A stretch of 64,000 bases of DNA from contig JAXCGZ010007567.1 of assembly GCA_037179515.1 (NCBI GenBank), positions 178,501 through 242,500 of the forward strand, in the 5' to 3' direction. The translations under genes and the position numbers were made by a program. Each line of letters starts with the position of its first letter. Positions within the stretch are counted from its first letter, which is position 1. This stretch comes from Halocaridina rubra. Lineage: Eukaryota; Arthropoda; Malacostraca; Decapoda; Atyidae. Below are positions 3,335-30,423 of the stretch, in pieces. Under the pieces are notes generated by a model. The model was not told the origin of the DNA. It saw only the letters and a program-made list of their open reading frames with translations, and did not search any database.

Positions 3335-5280
3335 ATTGCAGAATTTAACAAAAGAGACAATAAAAGATGTGAATGGACAGTTGTTAAAAGGAAACGATAC
3401 GAGAAAGCGATGGGCTGAATATTTTGAGGAGTTGCTGAAGGTACAGGAGGATAGAGAGGCAGATATAGCAGCAGTAGGGGGAGTTCAAGTTCTAGTAATG
3501 GGAGAGGAGAATGAGAGAAAGATTACAAGAGCGGAGATGAAGAGGGCATTGAATGAAACAAAAGGAGGTAAAGCACCTGGAATGGATGGTGTAAGAGTAA
3601 AAATGTTGAAAGAGGGGGGTGTAACTGCATTGGAATGGTTGGTGAGTGTTTAATATATGTTTTATGTTGTCAATGGTGCCAGTGGACTGGGCAATTGCAT
3701 GTATAGTGCCACTATACAAAGGTAAGAGAGACTAAGTGTAGTAATATTAGGGGTATAAGTTTGCTGAGTGTGGTAGGATACTGATAAATAGCATTAGGGA
3801 TAAAACAGATGTTATTGCGGAAGTACAGAGTGGTTTTAGGAGTAGAGAATGTACTGATCAAAGTTTTATAGTTAGGCAGATATGTGAGAAGTATTTGGCA
3901 AAACGTAAGGATGTGTATTTTGCAATTTGGATCTGGAAAAAGTATATGACAGTTGATAGAGATGCAATGAGGAATGTTTAGAGAATACAGTATATGGAAT
4001 TGGTGATAGATTATTACGAGCAGTGAAGAGTTTATATGTGGCCAGTAAAGCTTGTGTTAGGGTGGGGCATGAAGTGAATGGTTTGCAGTGAGAGTGGTGT
4101 TGAGACAGGGATGTGTAATGTCACCGTGGCTGTTCAATTTGAATATGGATGGAGTGGTAAGAGAGGTAAATGCTCGAGTACTTGGTCACGGATTGAAGCT
4201 TGTAGATGGGAATGAAAATGAGTGGGAGTTGAATCAGTTGCTGCTTGCAGATGATACTGTGGTGGTGGCAGACTCTGAGAGTAAGCTGTGTCACTTAGTG
4301 ACAGAATTTGGAAGGGTGTGTGAGAGAAGGAAGTTACGAGTGAATGTGGGAAAGAGTAAGGTTATGAGGTGCACAAGAAACGAGGATGGTGCTAGACTGA
4401 ATGCTATGTTGAATGGAGAGGCAATTGAGGAAGTAGACCAGTTCAAATATTTAGGCTCCGTTATAGCTGCAAATGGTGGAGTGCAAGCAGATGTGCACCA
4501 CTGAGTGAATGAAGGAAGCAAAGTGTTTGGTGCATTGAAGGGGGTAATGAAGATTAGAGGGCTGGGAATGAATGTTAAGAAAATTTTGTATGAGAAAGTG
4601 GTTGTGCCAACTGTAATGTGTGGCTGAGTCATGGGATATGAAAGAAACTGAGAGACAGAAACTGAATGTGTTTGAGATGAAATGTCTGAGGAGTATGACT
4701 GGTGTATCGCGGTTGGATAGGGTTAGGAATGAAGAAGTGAGAAGGAGAATGGGTGCAAGGAGAGATTTGGCATCTAGAGTAGATATAAATGTTTTGAGAT
4801 GGTTTGGTCATGTAGAGAGGATGGATAATGAACGACTACTGAAAAAGGTAATGACATCGGAAATGGATGGGAGAAATGCCAGAGGGAGGCCTAGGTTGGG
4901 CTGGATGGATGGAGTAAGGAGGATATTGAATGATAGGAGAATGGATGTGAGGGAGGCAAGTGAGCGTGCTAGGAATAGAAATGAGTGGTGAATGCTTGTG
5001 ACACAGTTCTTATTGGCATCTGCTGTTATCATGGAGTGCCTTGTAGAGGCAACCTGTGGTAGGGGCAGTAGGGGATTTGGTAGTATGAAGCGACGTAAGT
5101 TGTGGAAAAGGGGGGAGGATGGGATGTGGCACTCCAGCAGTACTATCCAAACCCTTGGCCAAATACCGTGTCATTGTTAGAACGAAGTGTAACCACACGT
5201 TGTGTTATTTTGCTTATTCTTTATTGTTGGCTACCAGCCAAAATGGGGAAAAAGGCCAAGGTAAATATAATATAATATAA
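3335..5280 (+). mobile_element. RTE-type LINE, 5'-truncated copy
   Basis: The same family as the longer copy at 27328-30689. It begins within the segment just before the reverse transcriptase and runs to a 3' end with an AT-rich tail (TATAA repeats, 5260-5285). The GC-richer 3' UTR at 5020-5240 aligns by eye with 30420-30670. The element lies just beyond the 3' end of YIPF3, in the opposite orientation. 5' truncation is usual for target-primed reverse transcription. Confidence 0.85.
3341..4991 (+). pseudogene. Broken reverse transcriptase of the RTE LINE
   Basis: Frame pieces at 3306-3653, 4088-4504 and 4620-4991 together cover the RT. Visible parts are GKAPGMDGV (fingers), LLLADDTVVVADS (palm, where family members have FADD), FKYLGSVI, and the C-terminal RWFGHVERM and RGRPRLGW blocks. 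Stops and frameshifts separate the pieces, notably around 3650-4090 and at 4501, so no full enzyme can be made. The C-terminal block after the palm is typical of RTE-like elements in arthropod genomes. Confidence 0.82.
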
Positions 5281-5349
5281 ATATAACTTTCTTGAAAATG
5301 CAATAATTGTACAGGTAATGATTGTGAAAAGACAAATTTAAATTGGGTA

Positions 5350-5355
5350 TTTATT
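5350..5355 (-). terminator. Candidate poly(A) signal for the YIPF3 cluster
   Basis: AATAAA on the minus strand, about 210 bases beyond the YIPF3 stop and before the RTE copy that ends at 5280. It is the best candidate 3' end for the whole minus-strand cluster. Choosing it is inference from position and motif. Confidence 0.35.
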
Positions 5356-5565
5356 GTACTCCTTATTTACAGTGTTTGTTACAAATTATCAAGATTTTAC
5401 TTCACTTTTGAAATATTAAAATTTTCATACAACTACCAAGGGTCTAGCCATGTTGACGCACAGTCCAACAGAATACATTACCAGGCTACTTGTGCTGCAC
5501 ATATTTTAATCTGAATTAATACTTATTTTATCAGACACCCATTTCTAGAAGGAATATTGTCAAAC

Positions 5566-6243
5566 TTAGACGTTGAGTGTTTTCCTCATGACTGCAAAAT
5601 GCAAGTATAATAAGTGCATTAGATGTATACAAGCTAGAGTAGAACACATAAGTAGTCTCTGTCCAGGACCTGGAGTATGCGCTAACATTATGAGAGTTAG
5701 CCTGCCAGTTGTGAGGCCTCCAAATACAGTCATTAAAAAGAAGAAAATGCCATGATTCTCTTCTTGGTGTAAAAGTTCAGTTATGACAAGTACAAGACAA
5801 TGTCCTGTTAAGCTGTAACCAGTTACAGAGAGAAACTGAGAAAAAGAGAGACTAGTCTGGCAAAAATATCCCAGGAAAAAGGCTAAAATGGAAAAGCCTA
5901 ACCAATAACCAAATGTCAGTTTTGCTGTAGTTGATATCTCTGCTAATGCTGTCTGTTCAGGGCTATGGAAGCCGTACAAAAGTATAGCTGCAAGGAAAGT
6001 TACTATAATGAAAGGTCCTTTCAGGTCTGAATAAACTCGCTGAAATTCAGGGAAGAAGAAAGGAGGAGCCATAGAAGAAACAATTCTACGAGGAATACGA
6101 CTATTTGATACAGAAAAATAGGGCCTGGCATACCTGACAATATTCAATAAGTTTTGGTATAATGAGGCCCGAGTATGTCTTAGAACTTCACCTGGGTAAA
6201 TGGACTCTATAGTCACAACCGAGTAATGTTTAGGCGACATCAT
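5566..6243 (-). CDS. YIPF3: YIPF3-like Yip1-domain Golgi membrane protein
   Basis: A 225-residue open frame matching the Yip1 domain of YIPF3. A soluble part with RPYF-type sequence (residues 40-43) and YSDLKGPF (71-78) precedes five hydrophobic segments at about 77-92, 109-129, 134-157, 164-187 and 195-218. FGYWLG, GYSLTGHC, GGLTTGR and GPGQRLL are typical family blocks. YIPF3 partners YIPF4 in the early Golgi; that role is family knowledge. It is shorter than the human protein (about 350 residues) at both ends. The frame stays open upstream to about 6280, and an acceptor-like CAG lies 4 bases before the first ATG, so an upstream exon remains possible. It is the last gene of the tight minus-strand run, 151 bases after BANF1. 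Confidence 0.85.
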   Translation of the reverse strand: MMSPKHYSVVTIESIYPGEVLRHTRASLYQNLLNIVRYARPYFSVSNSRIPRRIVSSMAPPFFFPEFQRVYSDLKGPFIIVTFLAAILLYGFHSPEQTALAEISTTAKLTFGYWLGFSILAFFLGYFCQTSLSFSQFLSVTGYSLTGHCLVLVITELLHQEENHGIFFFLMTVFGGLTTGRLTLIMLAHTPGPGQRLLMCSTLACIHLMHLLYLHFAVMRKTLNV

Positions 6244-6394
6244 ATTACTGTCCTTATGTACATAAAAAATAAATTTACTTTAGATAAAAATACTGTATAT
6301 CCTGCAATTAATAGATCTTCAGCCCCTTCGTATTAATTCACCAACAGTTACAGTAATACCGTGAAACCCCCCAAATGAACACCTTTAGAACTTG

Positions 6395-6673
6395 TCACAA
6401 GAACTCACTGCACCAGTCGGCTAAACACTGGTAACATTCCGAGGCTTGATTTGAATTAGCTCCTACCAGGTCCTGCAACCATTCCACAAAGAGTTCTCGA
6501 TTTTTCTTAAGAACAAGAAACTGTCCAAGAACAACAAATGCCTTGTCAAATCCTCGATTCTCAAGCCGTCTCCCAAGAACTTCTCCAATGCCGGCCAACT
6601 CAGTTACAGGTTTTTCACCCATTGGTTCAGCAACAAATAAGGTATGCTTCTGGGATGTAGTTGTCATTGTCAT
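6395..6673 (-). CDS. BANF1: Barrier-to-autointegration factor
   Basis: A 92-residue intact frame matching BAF along its whole length (human BAF has 89). It contains [13 protein letters not shown] near the N terminus, the helix-hairpin-helix stretch [33 protein letters not shown], and a C-terminal [16 protein letters not shown] is a small dimeric protein that binds double-stranded DNA and LEM-domain proteins and helps rebuild the nuclear envelope after mitosis. A second ATG two codons in gives a length closer to other BAFs, so either start is possible. The gene has no intron here. It starts 73 bases after the COX17 stop, with no obvious promoter or acceptor in that gap. Confidence 0.93.
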
Positions 6674-6746
6674 TCACAGTTACACAAAAAGCCCATTAAT
6701 AAATCATAATTTTCATTTACAAGCTTCATTTATAATGACAGTCACT

Positions 6747-6947
6747 TTAAATATTAAAACCCATTTCCCTCATACACTTTTTATGCGCTTCTATAAGTTC
6801 CTGGCAGTTTTCTTCACCTTTCTCCACAATACAAGCATCTCTCAACTGCTTTGTTTCAGGGCATGCACAGCATGCTTTACACTTGGGCTTTTTCTCAGCA
6901 TCTGAGGTCTTACTGCTGACTTCACTCCCTGCATTTACTTCAGGCAT
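6747..6947 (-). CDS. COX17: COX17 cytochrome c oxidase copper chaperone
   Basis: A complete 66-residue frame. It carries the copper-binding CC pair within [10 protein letters not shown] and a perfect twin CX9C arrangement, [11 protein letters not shown] and [11 protein letters not shown], which is oxidised by the MIA40 pathway in the mitochondrial intermembrane space. COX17 hands copper to SCO1 and COX11 for cytochrome c oxidase assembly. Length and C-terminal MGFNI fit the family. The start is fixed by the first ATG, 58 bases after a strong splice-acceptor-like site at 7009-7030. It is intronless here, third in the minus-strand run, with 91 bases to the NCBP2AS2-like stop and 73 to the BANF1 start. 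Confidence 0.95.
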
Positions 6948-7008
6948 GATGAATTTTACAGAAAAAAGTAAATCTTAATGATAATTACCTTAAATACAAC
7001 ACTTACTG

Positions 7009-7030
7009 CTGTAAAAAAGGAGAAAGGAAA
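7009..7030 (-). promoter_or_regulatory. Strong acceptor-like site between cistrons
   Basis: On the minus strand a pyrimidine-rich stretch (CCTTTCTCCTTTTTT) runs straight into ACAGCAG, 58 bases before the COX17 ATG and 9 bases after the NCBP2AS2-like stop. It is as good as any splice acceptor in the cluster. It could serve cis splicing of a separate COX17 transcript or trans splicing of a polycistronic precursor. Function is inference. Confidence 0.45.
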
Positions 7031-7038
7031 CTCCAGAG

Positions 7039-7290
7039 TTACTGCTGCTTCTTCTGATTCCCTTGTTCTATTTCTTTGAATCCCTTCTGAACCTCATGTG
7101 TGAATCTTTCTGAGAAACGTGAAATGCGTTTCTTGGTTTCTGATTCTAAAGCTTCCTCTGCAGCAATTCTTCCCCTGTTCAATGCATAAGCTGTCAGCTG
7201 AGCAGCACGACGAATGGGATAGGACTCAGCAATTTTATCGATAACCTGCGGATTGTTTAGGATTTTGTTGAGGAGGTAACGCAGTACCAT
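7039..7290 (-). CDS. NCBP2AS2: NCBP2AS2-like microprotein
   Basis: An 83-residue intact frame starting MVLRYLLNKILNNPQVIDK, followed by the diagnostic ESYPIRRAAQLTAYAL and a charged helix ending SERFTHEVQKGFKEIEQ. This matches the conserved small protein encoded by vertebrate NCBP2AS2: an R-R-L-L type N terminus, then PIRRAAQLTA. Its molecular role is poorly known. The exon begins at 7298 after a clear acceptor (TTTTTTATTTTAG), so the ATG lies only 8 bases inside the exon. An out-of-frame ATG at 7298-7296 precedes it. The nearest upstream donor on this strand is at the MED9 stop codon (8935), which suggests both proteins share one mRNA. Confidence 0.75.
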   Translation of the reverse strand: MVLRYLLNKILNNPQVIDKIAESYPIRRAAQLTAYALNRGRIAAEEALESETKKRISRFSERFTHEVQKGFKEIEQGNQKKQQ

Positions 7291-7319
7291 GTCCACATCT
7301 AAAATAAAAAAGTGAAACT

Positions 7320-8934
7320 TCACTTAAATACCAACTGGGACAACAATGGACTTTAAAAATTCAACCCTTAAACAATACCTGCCAAACACTATAATTAAAA
7401 ATATATTCTAGAGTAGAGAATAAAAAATGTATATCTGTAGAAAGCTAAATCAATAAAACGACAAACGAATTAATTAAACGTTCCTAATGTTGAAAACACA
7501 GAAAATGTGTTAAATTATACACTGCTGAAAATGTATTTATAAAATAAAGTTCAGAATATGTAACACTAAAACTAAGAAGTTTCATACACAGAACAATCTT
7601 AACAAGCCATGATGACAATTTACAACTGCCCTCAGTAACTTATTCAGAAAACTGAGAGTAGTATATGATAAACGTGATGTACTGTTATGACAGTGCATGC
7701 GGTTACTGGCTTACGAAAGAGGTAGATTTCAGCCAATGAGATGATAATCAAACTGATTTTGAAGTTTAAAAATATGAAGTACTGTACTTAGGGTCACAGC
7801 TCTGCTATATAATGTGTTGCACAGTAAACTATACAATGTACATAATGTAAAAACCAGAAACATATAAGTAATGTAAGTTTTCTTTATTTCTTTATCTTAT
7901 GACTACAGTGCTGTAAGTAAGTGCTATCCTAGTGAGGAGTAGAGTGCTCATCCTCCCATTTCATTCTCAATTTCTCGGTATTTTCTTCTCTTTCTCCTGG
8001 AATGAGGATTAATGTATAATACCTTCATAAGGCAACTAAATGGGGTAGAGCCGGAGGATCGTATCTACCCCTTCATATATTTCATCCATGAAGAGTCAAG
8101 GCATACTACACGTAAAAAAAATCAAGATAGAATTATAGCAGTTAGGTCTCTGAAAGTGCGTGATTGTGGAACAAGTGACAACAAAATGGAGCATTGTAGC
8201 AAGTTTGCTATTAGAAAAATGGATGCGTCAGCACTAATAGAAACAAAGAAGGGGAAGGGGAAGAATGTATTTTTTGGTGAATGGGTGTACTTTGACTTGG
8301 CAACCCCCACAAGGGATAATGTAACTTTTGTACTGTAGCTAGATAGATATCTTGATTGCCTTTCATAATATAAAAAGCAATTATAATTGCTTAAGAAAAT
8401 ATTCTTGGAAGTCTGGATATCGCAAGACGAAATGTTGTAATGCAAGGACTAATTATTGTACAACGAAAGGCAGTAGACATCAACTGTTTTAATATTTAGA
8501 CATCATTAGAAATACATTTCTGGGAGAGTAATTTCGACACAGAGAGACAACTAATATCAGTAGCTGAGAGAGAGAGGAATTATGTATGTGTTAAACATTC
8601 ACACAGAGTTTTAAAATATCTGGAGTGTTGGAGATCATAAAGAAAATATTTTAGATACTGTTAAATTGCTAAAATTCATGGCGATAAGGGTATTTAGTTT
8701 TCAATATCTTCTTGGACACAATTAACTAATTAAAAAAACGGATTGCAAGATAAATTATAAAATACAGTTATAGCAAAGCTTATTCATGCTTAAGCTATGG
8801 CCTTTAAGCACTATACACAGCTAAAACAGTCACATATTTATATCTAACAAGACAATTCCTATTAGTATATTAATCTACATTTCCATAGGTATTGCAACCC
8901 ATCAACATTGCAATGTTCAATGCAATATTACTTA
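7320..8934 (-). other. Intron between MED9 stop exon and NCBP2AS2 exon
   Basis: About 1.6 kb between the donor TAG|GTAAGT (8936/8935) and the acceptor at 7299-7300. It contains an RTE LINE fragment at 7930-8340 and otherwise AT-rich unique sequence. The pairing of these two sites is predicted from motif strength, not observed. Confidence 0.5.
7930..8340 (+). mobile_element. RTE LINE 5' fragment (endonuclease start)
   Basis: The frame at 8140-8335 contains LKVRDCGTSDNK, then RKMDASALIETKKGKGK. This matches the start of the endonuclease in the RTE copy at 27500-27640 (CETKMKGKGE). The rest of the element is missing. It sits inside the predicted intron of the minus-strand cluster, in opposite orientation. 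Confidence 0.6.
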
Positions 8935-8935
8935 C

Positions 8936-9070
8936 CTACTAATGTTGAGTCTCACTTTTAGCTTTGTACTTGAATAACAATCGTTTCTTGAGCATCAACT
9001 GCTTTCGAAGAGCTTCTAGATGTTTCAGTTGTTCTTCCTTGCTGTATTCTACTCCAGGAAGTTTGCGAAC
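8936..9070 (-). CDS. MED9: MED9 C-terminal exon
   Basis: This exon begins after the acceptor TGTTTAATAG and encodes VRKLPGVEYSKEEQLKHLEA followed by LRKQLMLKKRLLFKYKAKSE and TAG at 8939-8941. The pattern (short helix, LPGV or MPGI, then S-x-E-Q-Q helix, L-R-x-Q, K-Y-K near the end) is the conserved C-terminal Med9 domain. MED9 is a middle-module subunit of the Mediator coactivator complex in the nucleus. A second in-frame TAG directly follows, and its G is the last base before a perfect donor GTAAGT. The stop is thus 3 bases from an exon end, an unusual place that means the mRNA continues by splicing into another exon downstream. Confidence 0.75.
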
Positions 9071-9890: not shown

Positions 9891-10890
9891 CGGGCCATGA
9901 AATAACATAGTGGCATTCAGATAGAATGCTTCATTCCTAAGTATAGTAGATATAAGCTATAAGGGTGGATTCCTTTTAACCTTCTGTGGTGTGTAGTTAG
10001 TAGCGCCTTGACTTAGTAATTATAAGTCCTAGGTTCGAGTCCCGGTCGGGGTAAATAATGATTCATGTTTTCACATGTGTAATGTGCTTATTTGGTTTTT
10101 TCATGGCCTGAATGAGACTGGGAATTGAATTAAACGCAAAAATTAAGCCACGAGTGAGGTTGGGGAATCTGTAATATGAACATAATGGCATTCAGATAGA
10201 ATGCGTTCATTCCTAAGTATAGAAGATATAAGCTATAAGGTTGGATTCCTTTTAACCTTCTGTGGCGTGTAGTTGGTAGCGCCTTGACTTAGTAATTATA
10301 AGTCCTAGGTTCGAGTCCCGGTCGGGGTAAAAAATGATTCATGTTTTCACATATGTAATGTGCTTATTTGGTTCTTTCATGGCCCGAATGAGATTGGGAA
10401 TTGAATTAAACGCAAAAATGAAGCCACGAGTGAGGTTGGGGAATCTGTAATATGAACATAGTGGCATTCAGATAGAATGCGTTCATTCCTAAGTATAGCA
10501 GATATAAGCTATTAGGTTGGATTCCTTTTAACCTTCTGTGGTGTGTAGTTGGTAGCGCCTTGACTTAGTAATTATAAGTCCTAGGTTCGAGTCCCGGTCG
10601 GGGTAAAAAATGATTAATGTTTTCACATATGTAATGTGCTTATATGGTTATTTCATGGCCCGAATGAAATTAGGAATTGAATTAAACGCGAAAATGAAGC
10701 CACGAGTGAGGTTGGGGAATCTGTAATATGAACATAGTGGCATTCAGATAGAATGCGTTCATTCCTAAGTATAGCAGATATAAGCTATAAGGTTGGATTC
10801 CTTTTAACCTTCTGTGGAGTGTAGTTGGTAGCGCCTTGACTTAGTAATTATAAATCCTAGGTTCGAGTCCCAGTCGGGGTAAAAAAAAGA
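9890..10890 (+). repeat. Tandem array of a 276-base tRNA-derived repeat
   Basis: Three full units and one partial unit. The shared word CATTCAGATAGAATGC starts at 9914, 10189, 10465 and 10741, giving periods of 275, 276 and 276. Each unit holds a tRNA-like segment with an A-box-like TAGTTGGTAGCGCC and a B-box GGTTCGAGTCCC (for example 10032-10043), then about 190 bases of non-tRNA sequence. Such a head plus unrelated body fits a SINE, but the head-to-tail repetition is satellite-like. The last unit is cut off by the (TA)n tract at 10892. Confidence 0.85.

Positions 10891-10891
<1 letters not shown>

Positions 10892-10981
<90 letters not shown>
10892..10981. repeat. (TA)n microsatellite
   Basis: A pure TA tract of about 90 bases between the tRNA-derived array and the left end of a Tigger-like element. 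Confidence 0.95.
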
Positions 10982-12602
<1,621 letters not shown>

Positions 12603-12971: not shown

Positions 12972-13068
12972 CTGTTCCCTTGCAATCTGGATCTTGCGTT
13001 GAAGTTCAAGAACTTTCTGACTCGATTCCTGGGATACGCGAGACAGATCTGTCTGCTCCTTTTCAAGG
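12972..13068 (-). CDS. MED9: MED9 upstream exon
   Basis: Bounded by acceptor TTTATCCTTTAG and donor CAG|GTAAAAATA. After completing a split codon it encodes LEKEQTDLSRVSQESSQKVL and then ELQRKIQIAREQ, a charged helix that joins in phase 0 to VRKLPGV of the exon at 8936-9070. A coiled helix leading into the LPG turn matches the Med9 domain, where a helix ending before MPGI precedes the second helix. The intron to the next exon is 3.9 kb and filled with an RTE remnant, the tRNA-derived array and a Tigger element. The N-terminal exon of MED9 was not found in the window. Confidence 0.68.
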
Positions 13069-25350: not shown

Positions 25351-26319
25351 AGGTGTCCCAGGTGAAGTGTTAATAGGTTAGGTAAAGTTAATAATTCCCG
25401 ACAGTTTAAAAGGTCATAATAATGCAAAACATCAAAGGCCAAAGGATAAATGCGACGGATGGAACCATACAAATTACCCATTTTCCCTCATGGTCTTTGA
25501 TTAACATGTCGACTAGCAGGTTCTAGCAAACATTTACCAACATTATTTTTTACTCAAAGGTACGTGCTAAAATAACATACCTTCAACTCACTCTCATAAC
25601 CTGAAAAATAACATTTCAAATACTACCACACGGTAGCCGGGTATAGATAGGACCTGCTACGGTAGAAAAATATGATGATAATGTTCCGACAACACTCTTA
25701 ATCCAGGATTATTATTATGTTTTGCCCTTACCCATGTGGATAATGCAATCTATAAATATCACGTGTTGCAATATTACGGCGAGAATTGTAATAATTACCA
25801 ATTCTGTAACTCCCCCCGTGGCCTGTACGAACGAAGAACTTGCGTAACAGAGAATCCGACCGGCGGCCGTCATTTGAATATTTACCTTGGCCAGGCAAGA
25901 AATAAAGCATAAACAAAAAAAAATACTAACTCACGCATGCAACAGGCATACTTCAGTACTCAAAGCAGGACCTCGAGACCATCCATACCTGTGGGCCAAT
26001 CATATTCCGCTATTAAAAATATGCATGCATGCTCTTCCAAGTCCGCATAGTTTGGCACTCGAACACAAATCGAATTTCCTATTTTTTTTTACTAAACACC
26101 AAAACATTTCGGCAACATGAGTCATCGTTTGCATATACCTGGAGTTACTATATACGTTAAGGAGCAATATTAATCTTACCAGCGCAAATATTGATAAATA
26201 ATTGGTAAAAAATCTACATCGATGTCCTCGGCAGCAACTACTTGGGATGACATCATTGAGTACAGTATTTAGAAAAGACAAACTCCTCAAAACTGAAATT
26301 GAAGTGACTGAACATTGGT
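25351..26319. other. Unique sequence, nothing recognised
   Basis: It includes a locally GC-richer patch at 25800-25880 but no frame, exon or repeat that I can name. Confidence 0.4.
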
Positions 26320-28344: not shown

Positions 28345-30423
28345 CAGGGTGAAAGAAAGAGAAGTTTGGGAGTTAGGGGAGGAATGGGGGTTGATGAAAG
28401 AATGTTTTGTGGGACATGCAAGTGATGTGTGTGGAAAGAGGTTTGTTGGAGGTGGCATGAGGAGGGGCAGCGAAAGGTGGAATGAAGGGATGAAAATGAA
28501 GGTGGAAGAGAAAAAGAGGGCTTTTGAGGAATGGCTGCAGTGTAAAAGCAGGGAGAAGTATGAAAGATATAGTGAGAAAAATGTGGAAACCAAGCAGAAG
28601 GTAGAGGAAGAGAAGAGGTTGGCAAATGTTAGGTGGGGACAGGAATTTAGTAGGTCATATGAGGAGAATAAAAAGAAGTTTTGGAAAGAAGTGAAGAGAG
28701 TAAGGAAGGGTGGATCGAGGATGGAAGAGACAGTGAAAGATGTGAATGGACAGATGCTAGGAGGGAACGATGCAAGGAAAAGATGAGCAGAATATTTTGA
28801 GTGCTTGCTGAATGTTGAGGAAGATAGAGAAGCAGCAATAGAGGCAGTGGAGGGAGGGTGAACAAGGGCCAGTAACTGGTGATGAAAATGAGAGAGAGAT
28901 TACAAAAGAGGAGGTGAAAAGGGCATTGTATGAAGCGAAAGCAGGTAAAGCACCTGGAATGGATGGTGTGAGAGCGGAGATGTTGAAAGAAGGGGGTGTG
29001 ACTGCATTGGAATGGTTAGTGAGAGTGTTTAATATATGCTTTATGTTTTCATTGGTGCCTGTGGAATGGGTGATTGCCTGTATAGTGCCCCTATACAAAG
29101 GTAAGGGAGATGTGTATGAATGCAGTAATTTTAGGGGTATAAGTTTGTTGAGTGTGGTAGGAAAAGTGTATGGTAGGATACTGATTAATAGGATTAGGGA
29201 TAAGACAGAATATGTGATCACGGAAGTGCAGAGTGGTTTTAGGAGAGGTAGAGGTTGTATAGATCAGATTTTTATAGTTAGGCAGTTATGTGAGAAATAT
29301 TTAGCAAAGGGTAAGGATGTGTATTTTGCATTGTTGGATCTGGAGAAAGCATATGATAGAGTTGATAGAGAGGCTATGTGGAATGTTTTGAGATTATATA
29401 GAATTAATGGTAAATTGTTGCATGCAGTGAAGAGTTTGTATGAGGGCAGTAGAGCTTGTGTTAGGGTAGGGAATGAAGTGAGTGAGTGGTTTCCAGTGAG
29501 TGTGGGACTGAGATTGGGATGTGTGATGTCACCATGGCTGTTCAATTTGTATATTGATGGAGTTGTAAGAGAGGTGAATGAGTGAGTGCGTGGTCGAGGT
29601 TTGAGAATGGTAGATGGGGATGATAACGAGTGGGAGCTGAATCAGTTGCTGTTTGCAGATGATACTGTGGTGGTGGCAGATTCAGAGGAAAAGCTATGTC
29701 AGTTAGTGTCAGAATTTGGAATGGTGTGTGAGAGAAGGAAGTTGCGAGTGAATGTGGGAAAGAGTAAGGTTATGAGGTGTACAAGAAATGAAGATGGTGC
29801 TGGATTGCATGTTATATTGAATGGGGAGACACTTGAGGAGGTTAATCAGTTTAAGTATTTAGGCTCGGTTATAGCTGCAAATGGTGGTGTGGAAGCAGAT
29901 GTGTGTCACAGAGTGAATGAAGGATGTAAAGTGTTGAGTGCATTGAAAGGAGTGATGAAGAATAGAGGGTTGGAAAATGAATGTTAAGAAAGTTTTGTAT
30001 GAGAAAGTGGTTGTGCCATCTGTGATGTATGGATCGGAGTTATGGGGTATGAAAGTAAGTGAGAGACGGAAACTAAATGTGTTTGAGATGAAATGCCTGA
30101 GGAGTATGATTGGTGTATTTCGATTGGATAGGGTTAGGAATGAAGTGGTGAGAGCAAGAATGGGTGTGAGGAGAGAAATTGCAGCTAGAGTAGATATGAA
30201 TGTTCTGAGATGGTTTGGCCATGTGGAAAGGATGGATGATGAAAGGCTGCTGAAAAAGGTGATGAATGCGAGAGTTGGTGGGAGAAATGCTAGAGGAAGG
30301 CCTAGGTTTGGATGGATGGATGGAGTAAGGAGAGCCCTGAATGATAGGAGGATGGATGTGAGGGAAGCAAGCGAGCGTGCTAGGAATAGGAATGAGTGGC
30401 GAGCGATTGTGATGCAGCTCTGA
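28328..30423 (+). pseudogene. RTE reverse transcriptase and C-terminal block
   Basis: Frames 28328-28786, 28914-29585, 29586-29987 and 29977-30423. The visible parts are GKAPGMDGVRAEMLKEGG, CIVPLYKGKGDVYECSNFRG, LLDLEKAYDRVDREAMW, GLRLGCVMSPWLFNLYIDG, LLFADDTVVVADSEEKL, RRKLRVNVGKSKVMRCT and the C-terminal RWFGHVERMDDERLLKKV and GRNARGRPRFGW. Breaks are a frameshift near 28785-28900, a TGA at 29581-29583 and a single-base insertion near 29972. All catalytic aspartates of the palm remain. A few point changes separate this copy from an open one, so it is relatively recent. Confidence 0.87.

Follow-up and report, generated by a model that had tools for sequence, protein, structure and literature searches.

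A 64,000-nucleotide stretch of the genome of the shrimp Halocaridina rubra (assembly GCA_037179515.1, contig JAXCGZ010007567.1, positions 178,501 to 242,500), referred to below as the window, carries five unrelated genes arranged head to tail on the minus strand. Read 5' to 3' on that strand, they encode a Mediator subunit (MED9), a microprotein of unclear function (NCBP2AS2), a mitochondrial copper chaperone (COX17), a chromatin factor (BANF1), and a Yip1-family membrane protein (YIPF3-like). All five reading frames are open. A preliminary description, made from the letters of the window, had reported this order and strand, short gaps between the last four genes, and no intron within them. 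All of this was borne out: the last four genes are single, complete, intronless open reading frames (ORFs) at the positions and on the strand first reported, and the same gaps were measured, with 91 nucleotides (nt) between NCBP2AS2 and COX17, 73 nt between COX17 and BANF1, and 151 nt between BANF1 and YIPF3. The five-gene cluster itself is thereby confirmed as a real feature of the locus. For MED9 the earlier reading covered the second and third exons; the first, which begins at 26256, was now located as well, and the gene is complete within the window. Coordinates are collected in Table 1.

COX17 (Pfam match 2.9e-21) keeps the CC site and both CX9C motifs, and BANF1 (BAF Pfam match 7.8e-42) aligns with a BAF chain in PDB from residue 3 to the C-terminal end. 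The YIPF3-like protein matches the Yip1 Pfam family at 1.8e-6, which is 0.2 bit below the curated cut-off. Its closest named match, among 34 matches, is a Penaeus "protein YIPF3-like" with 64% identity over the full length, and its nearest relatives in Penaeus, Homarus, Procambarus, Oratosquilla, and others are named YIPF3 or YIPF3-like. NCBP2AS2 matched no Pfam family and takes its identity from the names of homologues, three distant ones among 35 matches (in Haliotis, Lineus, and Spea) being so named. For MED9, exons 2 and 3 match Pfam Med9 (2e-15), exon 1 was located by means of the H. rubra MED9 protein sequence, and the joined exons encode 101 amino acids identical to that protein (SK128_010187; P0070). 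While H. rubra MED9 is thus present in the protein database searched, the best matches there to NCBP2AS2 and YIPF3 are 86% and 73% identical, respectively, and the H. rubra versions of these two proteins are therefore absent from it. The locus is an example of ORFs of this kind escaping annotation, MED9 of this species being annotated and its NCBP2AS2 and YIPF3 not.

MED9 and NCBP2AS2 lie 1.6 kb apart in the DNA, a distance that reads as an intron (8935-7299). Splice signals were scored with a generic matrix over all minus-strand sites of the window (3123 GT and 3955 AG). MED9 exon 3 ends in two consecutive TAG codons followed directly by a GTAAGT donor (TAGTAG/GTAAGT, where the slash marks the junction), 3 nt past the first stop codon, and this donor ranks 12th among the GT sites. 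NCBP2AS2 is preceded by the acceptor CTTTTTTATTTTAG, with a predicted exon start 8 nt upstream of the ATG. This acceptor ranks 89th among the AG sites and so scores better than MED9's own exon-2 and exon-3 acceptors (203rd and 398th). Most simply, the 1,637-base stretch is read as an intron, which would place MED9 and NCBP2AS2 together on one predicted mRNA. Counted from the MED9 ATG, this mRNA would be about 2.27 kb long and would carry five ORFs with spacers of 11, 91, 73, and 151 nt, the first of these running from the first MED9 stop to the NCBP2AS2 start.

In this model the last exon junction falls 3 nt past the first MED9 stop, and no intron lies further downstream. Nonsense-mediated decay tolerates a junction so near a stop codon but, where decay is junction-dependent, does not tolerate introns in later cistrons; in Drosophila, decay is thought to be less dependent on exon junctions. 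The predicted layout would therefore be what a stable polycistronic mRNA needs. The highest-ranking of the 3955 AG sites is an acceptor-like site at 7008, just past the NCBP2AS2 stop. The simplest gene model gives this inter-ORF site no role; trans-splicing may use it, or it may be an initiator rich in pyrimidines.

Table 1. Genes, predicted splice features, and candidate signals of the cluster, in window coordinates.
Feature	Position	Strand	Description
MED9 exon 1	26180-26256	-	Counted from ATG; opens ATGATG; donor GTAAGA at 26179; own-genome match
MED9 exon 2	12972-13068	-	Own-genome match
MED9 exon 3	8936-9070	-	Stop TAG at 8941-8939, second TAG at 8938-8936; own-genome match
Predicted intron, MED9 stop to NCBP2AS2	7299-8935	-	Donor TAG/GTAAGT; from splice-signal scores; 1,637 bases
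Predicted last exon, shared by four ORFs	5335-7298	-	3' end (~15 nt past AATAAA) assumed
NCBP2AS2 ORF	7039-7290	-	83 amino acids, complete; start context GACATGG
Acceptor-like site TCCTTTCTCCTTTTTTACAG/CAG, NCBP2AS2-COX17 gap	7006-7028	-	First exon base 7008; top minus-strand AG score
COX17 ORF	6747-6947	-	66 amino acids, complete; CC site and twin CX9C intact
BANF1 (BAF) ORF	6395-6673	-	92 amino acids, intronless, complete
YIPF3-like ORF	5566-6243	-	225 amino acids, complete
AATAAA, likely shared poly(A) signal	5350-5355	-	210 nt past YIPF3 stop; an ATTAAA is closer, at 5510

From the arrangement of the ORFs and the fit of the splice signals, we consider it likely that the cluster is transcribed as a whole, over about 21 kb, and yields a single cis-spliced, five-ORF mRNA. 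RNA polymerase II would initiate upstream of the MED9 ATG (26256), and the transcript would be polyadenylated past YIPF3, at about 5340. Ordinary cis-splicing would take out three introns, the last of them reaching from directly after the MED9 stops to 8 nt before NCBP2AS2. We infer a mature mRNA of about 2.3 kb with the order MED9, NCBP2AS2, COX17, BANF1, YIPF3. The preliminary description had called an operon-like precursor conceivable; the splice signals and the linkage of some of the genes support a common precursor, and its resolution by a spliced leader is the part that was not supported, as documented below.

Linkage in related crustaceans was assessed for NCBP2AS2, YIPF3, and MED9 by comparing, between protein matches, the size of the source "longest contig". 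After exclusion of seven named genome-assembly rows from each set, 28 of 35 NCBP2AS2 rows and 27 of 34 YIPF3 rows were compared. Ten sizes are identical between the two (1756, 1994, 2307, 2384, 2493, 2681, 2741, 2747, 3025, and 19785), against a jittered null with a mean of 0.26 and a maximum of 5 in 20,000 trials. Over the ten pairs, the between-protein distances are correlated (Mantel r 0.68), with 0 of 20,000 permutations as high. NCBP2AS2 and YIPF3 thus appear, from these sizes, to be linked in the relatives, and if the five-ORF mRNA is real, the sharing of contig sizes among divergent relatives suggests that it is old. Nine of the ten shared contigs are 1.8-3.0 kb long, near the predicted mRNA size.

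For MED9, ten sizes were compared, 17 of 27 rows (genome assemblies and one without a size) having been excluded; a YIPF3 size recurs once among them (2798), as does an NCBP2AS2 size (2896). The former pairs YIPF3 P0060 with MED9 P0079, which has exons 2 and 3 joined and lacks exon 1. Spliced RNA is suggested for P0079 because P0082 and P0083, near-identical to it in the exons, retain intron sequence at the exon 2/3 joint. In the latter pair, the MED9 fragment (P0095) continues into intron sequence and therefore comes from genomic DNA. In Petrolisthes, MED9 (Pmani_007860) and YIPF3 (Pmani_007863) are both on a contig of 202951 bases, and equal chromosome sizes for MED9 and YIPF3 in Penaeus, Procambarus, and Oratosquilla are weak evidence. 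No related DNA came from scans of viral contigs with BAF, YIPF3, or NCBP2AS2, or from a scan of genome contigs with YIPF3. Of the gene associations, NCBP2AS2-YIPF3 thus appears in relatives through shared contig sizes and MED9-YIPF3 through one Petrolisthes contig; Petrolisthes NCBP2AS2 (Pmani_027629) is an exception, being on another contig (279381).

That separation in Petrolisthes is one of several findings, on linkage, transcription signals, BAF copies, and translation, that weigh against a single five-ORF mRNA. Also on linkage, one of two possible NCBP2AS2 matches was chosen by eye for the pair at 2741, and in the pair at 2747 NCBP2AS2 is truncated at 71 amino acids (P0025). The chance of at least one MED9 match is about 0.09 for YIPF3 and about 0.10 for NCBP2AS2, and the match at 2798 alone could be chance. 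Contigs labelled "lgn", which we take to be Logan assemblies, include genomic DNA, as P0082, P0083, P0095, and P0096 carry intron sequence; size alone is for that reason not proof of RNA.

On transcription, the COX17-BANF1 gap contains a TATAAA (6734) that may mark an internal promoter, and an AATAAA at 7888 and an ATTAAA at 8493, both inside predicted intron 3, could end an mRNA of MED9 only. These signals would suit a compact cluster in which every ORF is served by a small promoter of its own, the gene order reflects tight linkage, and any joint RNAs are read-through. So would the situation in Drosophila, where the 3' gene of a pair is as a rule also expressed from a promoter further downstream or outside the unit, as a monocistronic mRNA (PMC4528330; this and the other papers cited are represented by excerpts). 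We regard such a set of separate genes as unlikely, though deserving of some weight: a terminator plus a promoter would hardly fit into gaps of 73-151 nt, and the pairing of a donor at the MED9 stop with an acceptor just before NCBP2AS2 would serve nothing. From NCBP2AS2 as far as the stop of YIPF3 there is no AATAAA or ATTAAA, which points the same way, though the absence is not significant (0 vs 2.0 expected, P 0.11; for the three gaps alone, 0 vs 0.75, P 0.46). The preliminary description had seen no obvious promoter or poly(A) signal between the last four genes; these two poly(A) motifs are indeed absent there. Internal promoters, alone or in addition to the one upstream of MED9, are possible.

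In nematode SL2 operons, head-to-tail genes are separated by gaps of about 100 nt. The shrimp cluster shares their order and gap size but does not have an acceptor-like site before each gene. Its gap sizes and the top-ranking acceptor-like site at 7008, in the NCBP2AS2-COX17 gap, could suggest a precursor cut into monocistronic mRNAs by leader trans-splicing. Reads of the amphipod Parhyale have had leader sequences trimmed (excerpt of PMC5111886); in the excerpted text of PMC7986045, operons are described as not reported for copepods or amphipods. The preliminary description had proposed leader sites near 7009, 6674, and 6249. Of these, the first coincides with the strong site (7008/7009), no AG with a score of at least 3 occurs in the COX17-BANF1 gap where the second would lie, and the best site in the BANF1-YIPF3 gap, at 6252, is weak (rank 464 of 3955). 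Good acceptors thus occur only at 7298 and 7008, and the former has a donor in cis. Nor does a poly(A) signal follow each upstream gene, with candidates after MED9 (8493 and 7888) and none after NCBP2AS2, COX17, or BANF1, an absence that is not significant. Because the NCBP2AS2 acceptor has a cis partner and no acceptor-like site precedes BANF1, resolution by a spliced leader is not supported; with acceptors missing before BANF1 and weak before YIPF3, we rejected it as the leading explanation and judge it very improbable.

Searches of the H. rubra assembly (1.18 Gb in 21,031 contigs, with the window at C6485:178501-242500) found a single match each for NCBP2AS2 and COX17 and three exons for MED9, all at the cluster locus only. 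A second BAF gene, about 73% identical to the cluster BAF, was found on contig C5527 (23568-29361; loci L009 and L008), with two open exons and one intron bounded by clean splice sites, AAG/GTGAGA ... TTTCTTCTTTCAG/GC. The cluster BANF1 is therefore not the only BAF of the genome. BANF1 thus shows the retrogene pattern, its own copy lacking introns and the copy on C5527 having one; no second copy of COX17 or NCBP2AS2 was found. The unit may have grown by the addition of intronless copies behind a MED9-NCBP2AS2 pair of greater age, a history of which a sign is seen for BANF1 only. The intronless state of the four downstream ORFs and the intron-bearing BAF on C5527 would also suit a recent retrocopy or assembly artefact, in which non-functional intronless copies or cDNA contamination had been put together. 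We find this scarcely credible and rejected it, on the five open frames, the single copies of COX17 and NCBP2AS2, the shortness of the A runs (at most 4 in the gaps and fewer than 6 in the 231-nt 3' end), and the contig sizes that NCBP2AS2 and YIPF3 share in divergent relatives.

Translation from the predicted five-ORF mRNA would call for more than one route. For NCBP2AS2 we favour leaky scanning, with ribosomes passing over the MED9 start, the first MED9 AUG having T at -3 and the NCBP2AS2 AUG having G at both -3 and +4. Against this, a second in-frame MED9 AUG, directly after the first, has A at -3, and out-of-frame AUGs are depleted in none of the five ORFs (MED9, 1 vs 1.0 expected; NCBP2AS2, 2 vs 1.7). 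A 13-codon overlapping ORF begins 8 nt upstream of the NCBP2AS2 AUG. In the predicted mRNA, 26 AUGs lie upstream of the one that opens YIPF3, too many for that ORF to be reached by simple scanning. COX17, BANF1, and YIPF3 would instead need reinitiation, internal entry, alternative splicing to 7008, or shorter mRNAs from internal promoters. The MED9 donor, if spliced to 7008, would skip NCBP2AS2 and place COX17 second.

The closest comparison is with Drosophila melanogaster, for which FlyBase 6.04 holds 159 dicistronic pairs, 7 tricistronic sets, and 2 tetracistronic sets (Crosby et al. 2015, PMC4528330). According to the same excerpt, no more than 45 of these 159 loci seem to rely on dicistronic transcripts alone for both products, and loci with polycistronic transcripts only have -34 to 319 nt between ORFs, a range that contains all four shrimp spacers. 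The fly loci are similar in being nuclear and arthropod and in placing mostly dissimilar ORFs on one processed mRNA. They differ in that they are based on cDNA and RNA-seq, whereas the shrimp unit is predicted from genomic sequence only, and its five cistrons, if it is real, would exceed the four of the two longest FlyBase sets. With conserved ORFs on one strand and spacers as short as those of arthropod polycistronic loci (11, 91, 73, and 151 nt), the cluster is a candidate polycistronic unit of the Drosophila kind and would be an unusually long member.

The label "Carmae" in the species comparisons of Hayden and Bosco is presumably Carcinus maenas. Among the mRNAs with conserved peptide upstream ORFs in that study, some pairs, such as CG33713/CG33714, are kept as far as Pancrustacea (Hayden and Bosco 2008, PMC2276209). 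The excerpt also reports that mitochondrial import proteins are enriched among such mRNAs, that twin-CX9C ORFs recur, and that CG9865 has three upstream ORFs. None of the five shrimp genes is named as a pair member in the excerpted text, where Cox17 figures in a comparison only. Several of the ORFs treated there are of unknown function, and in the shrimp the largest ORF comes last, after four small ones.

One Drosophila MED9 P insertion carries the allele symbol of CG42518, as is the case for the dicistronic pair CG33785/CG33786 (PMC4978919). Fly MED9 therefore has, so far as the excerpted listing goes, a closely placed partner in CG42518. We assume that the two are dicistronic, and our equation of CG42518 with a counterpart of NCBP2AS2 is a guess.

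Outside arthropods, bicistronic loci of green algae are alike in their short first ORF, short inter-ORF distance, and use of leaky scanning where the start context of ORF 1 is weak; they differ in having two cistrons and in an underrepresentation of initiation codons before ORF 2 (PMC11892635), whereas no AUG depletion was found in the shrimp. For human bicistronic transcripts (STREMI/SLC35A4), read-through following retroposition was proposed as the origin in 2026 (PMC13303939). The intronless shrimp BANF1, with its intron-bearing relative elsewhere, fits that idea; the human case, as excerpted, differs in having two cistrons.

A fuller claim, which we offer tentatively and hold to be somewhat doubtful, is that the cluster produces a conserved malacostracan pentacistronic nuclear mRNA from which all five proteins are translated without spliced-leader processing. 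Introns would be confined to the first cistron and its stop junction, an arrangement that would keep the later cistrons from being flagged as aberrant 3' untranslated region, and site 7008 would act as a switch by which COX17 takes the place of NCBP2AS2 after MED9. If the five-ORF mRNA is real, it would provide a concrete test of how ribosomes gain access to third, fourth, and fifth cistrons in animals. No description of this cluster was found among the titles and abstract openings listed from the open-licence literature searched.

Rfam found nothing in the window at gathering thresholds. Inside MED9 intron 2 lie 3.6 tandem copies of a 276-bp unit (9904-10895, 95% matches), in which a tRNA-like stretch can be seen by eye; the unit is perhaps a tRNA-derived short interspersed element. 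Perfect TA/AT dinucleotide runs also occur in the introns, at 12425-12600 (88 copies) and 10894-10982 (44.5 copies). The MED9 unit is flanked by reverse transcriptase fragments on the plus strand, at 28842-29585 and 4118-4504 (Pfam RVT_1, 8.3e-25 and 3.7e-11, respectively), which resemble those of long interspersed elements.

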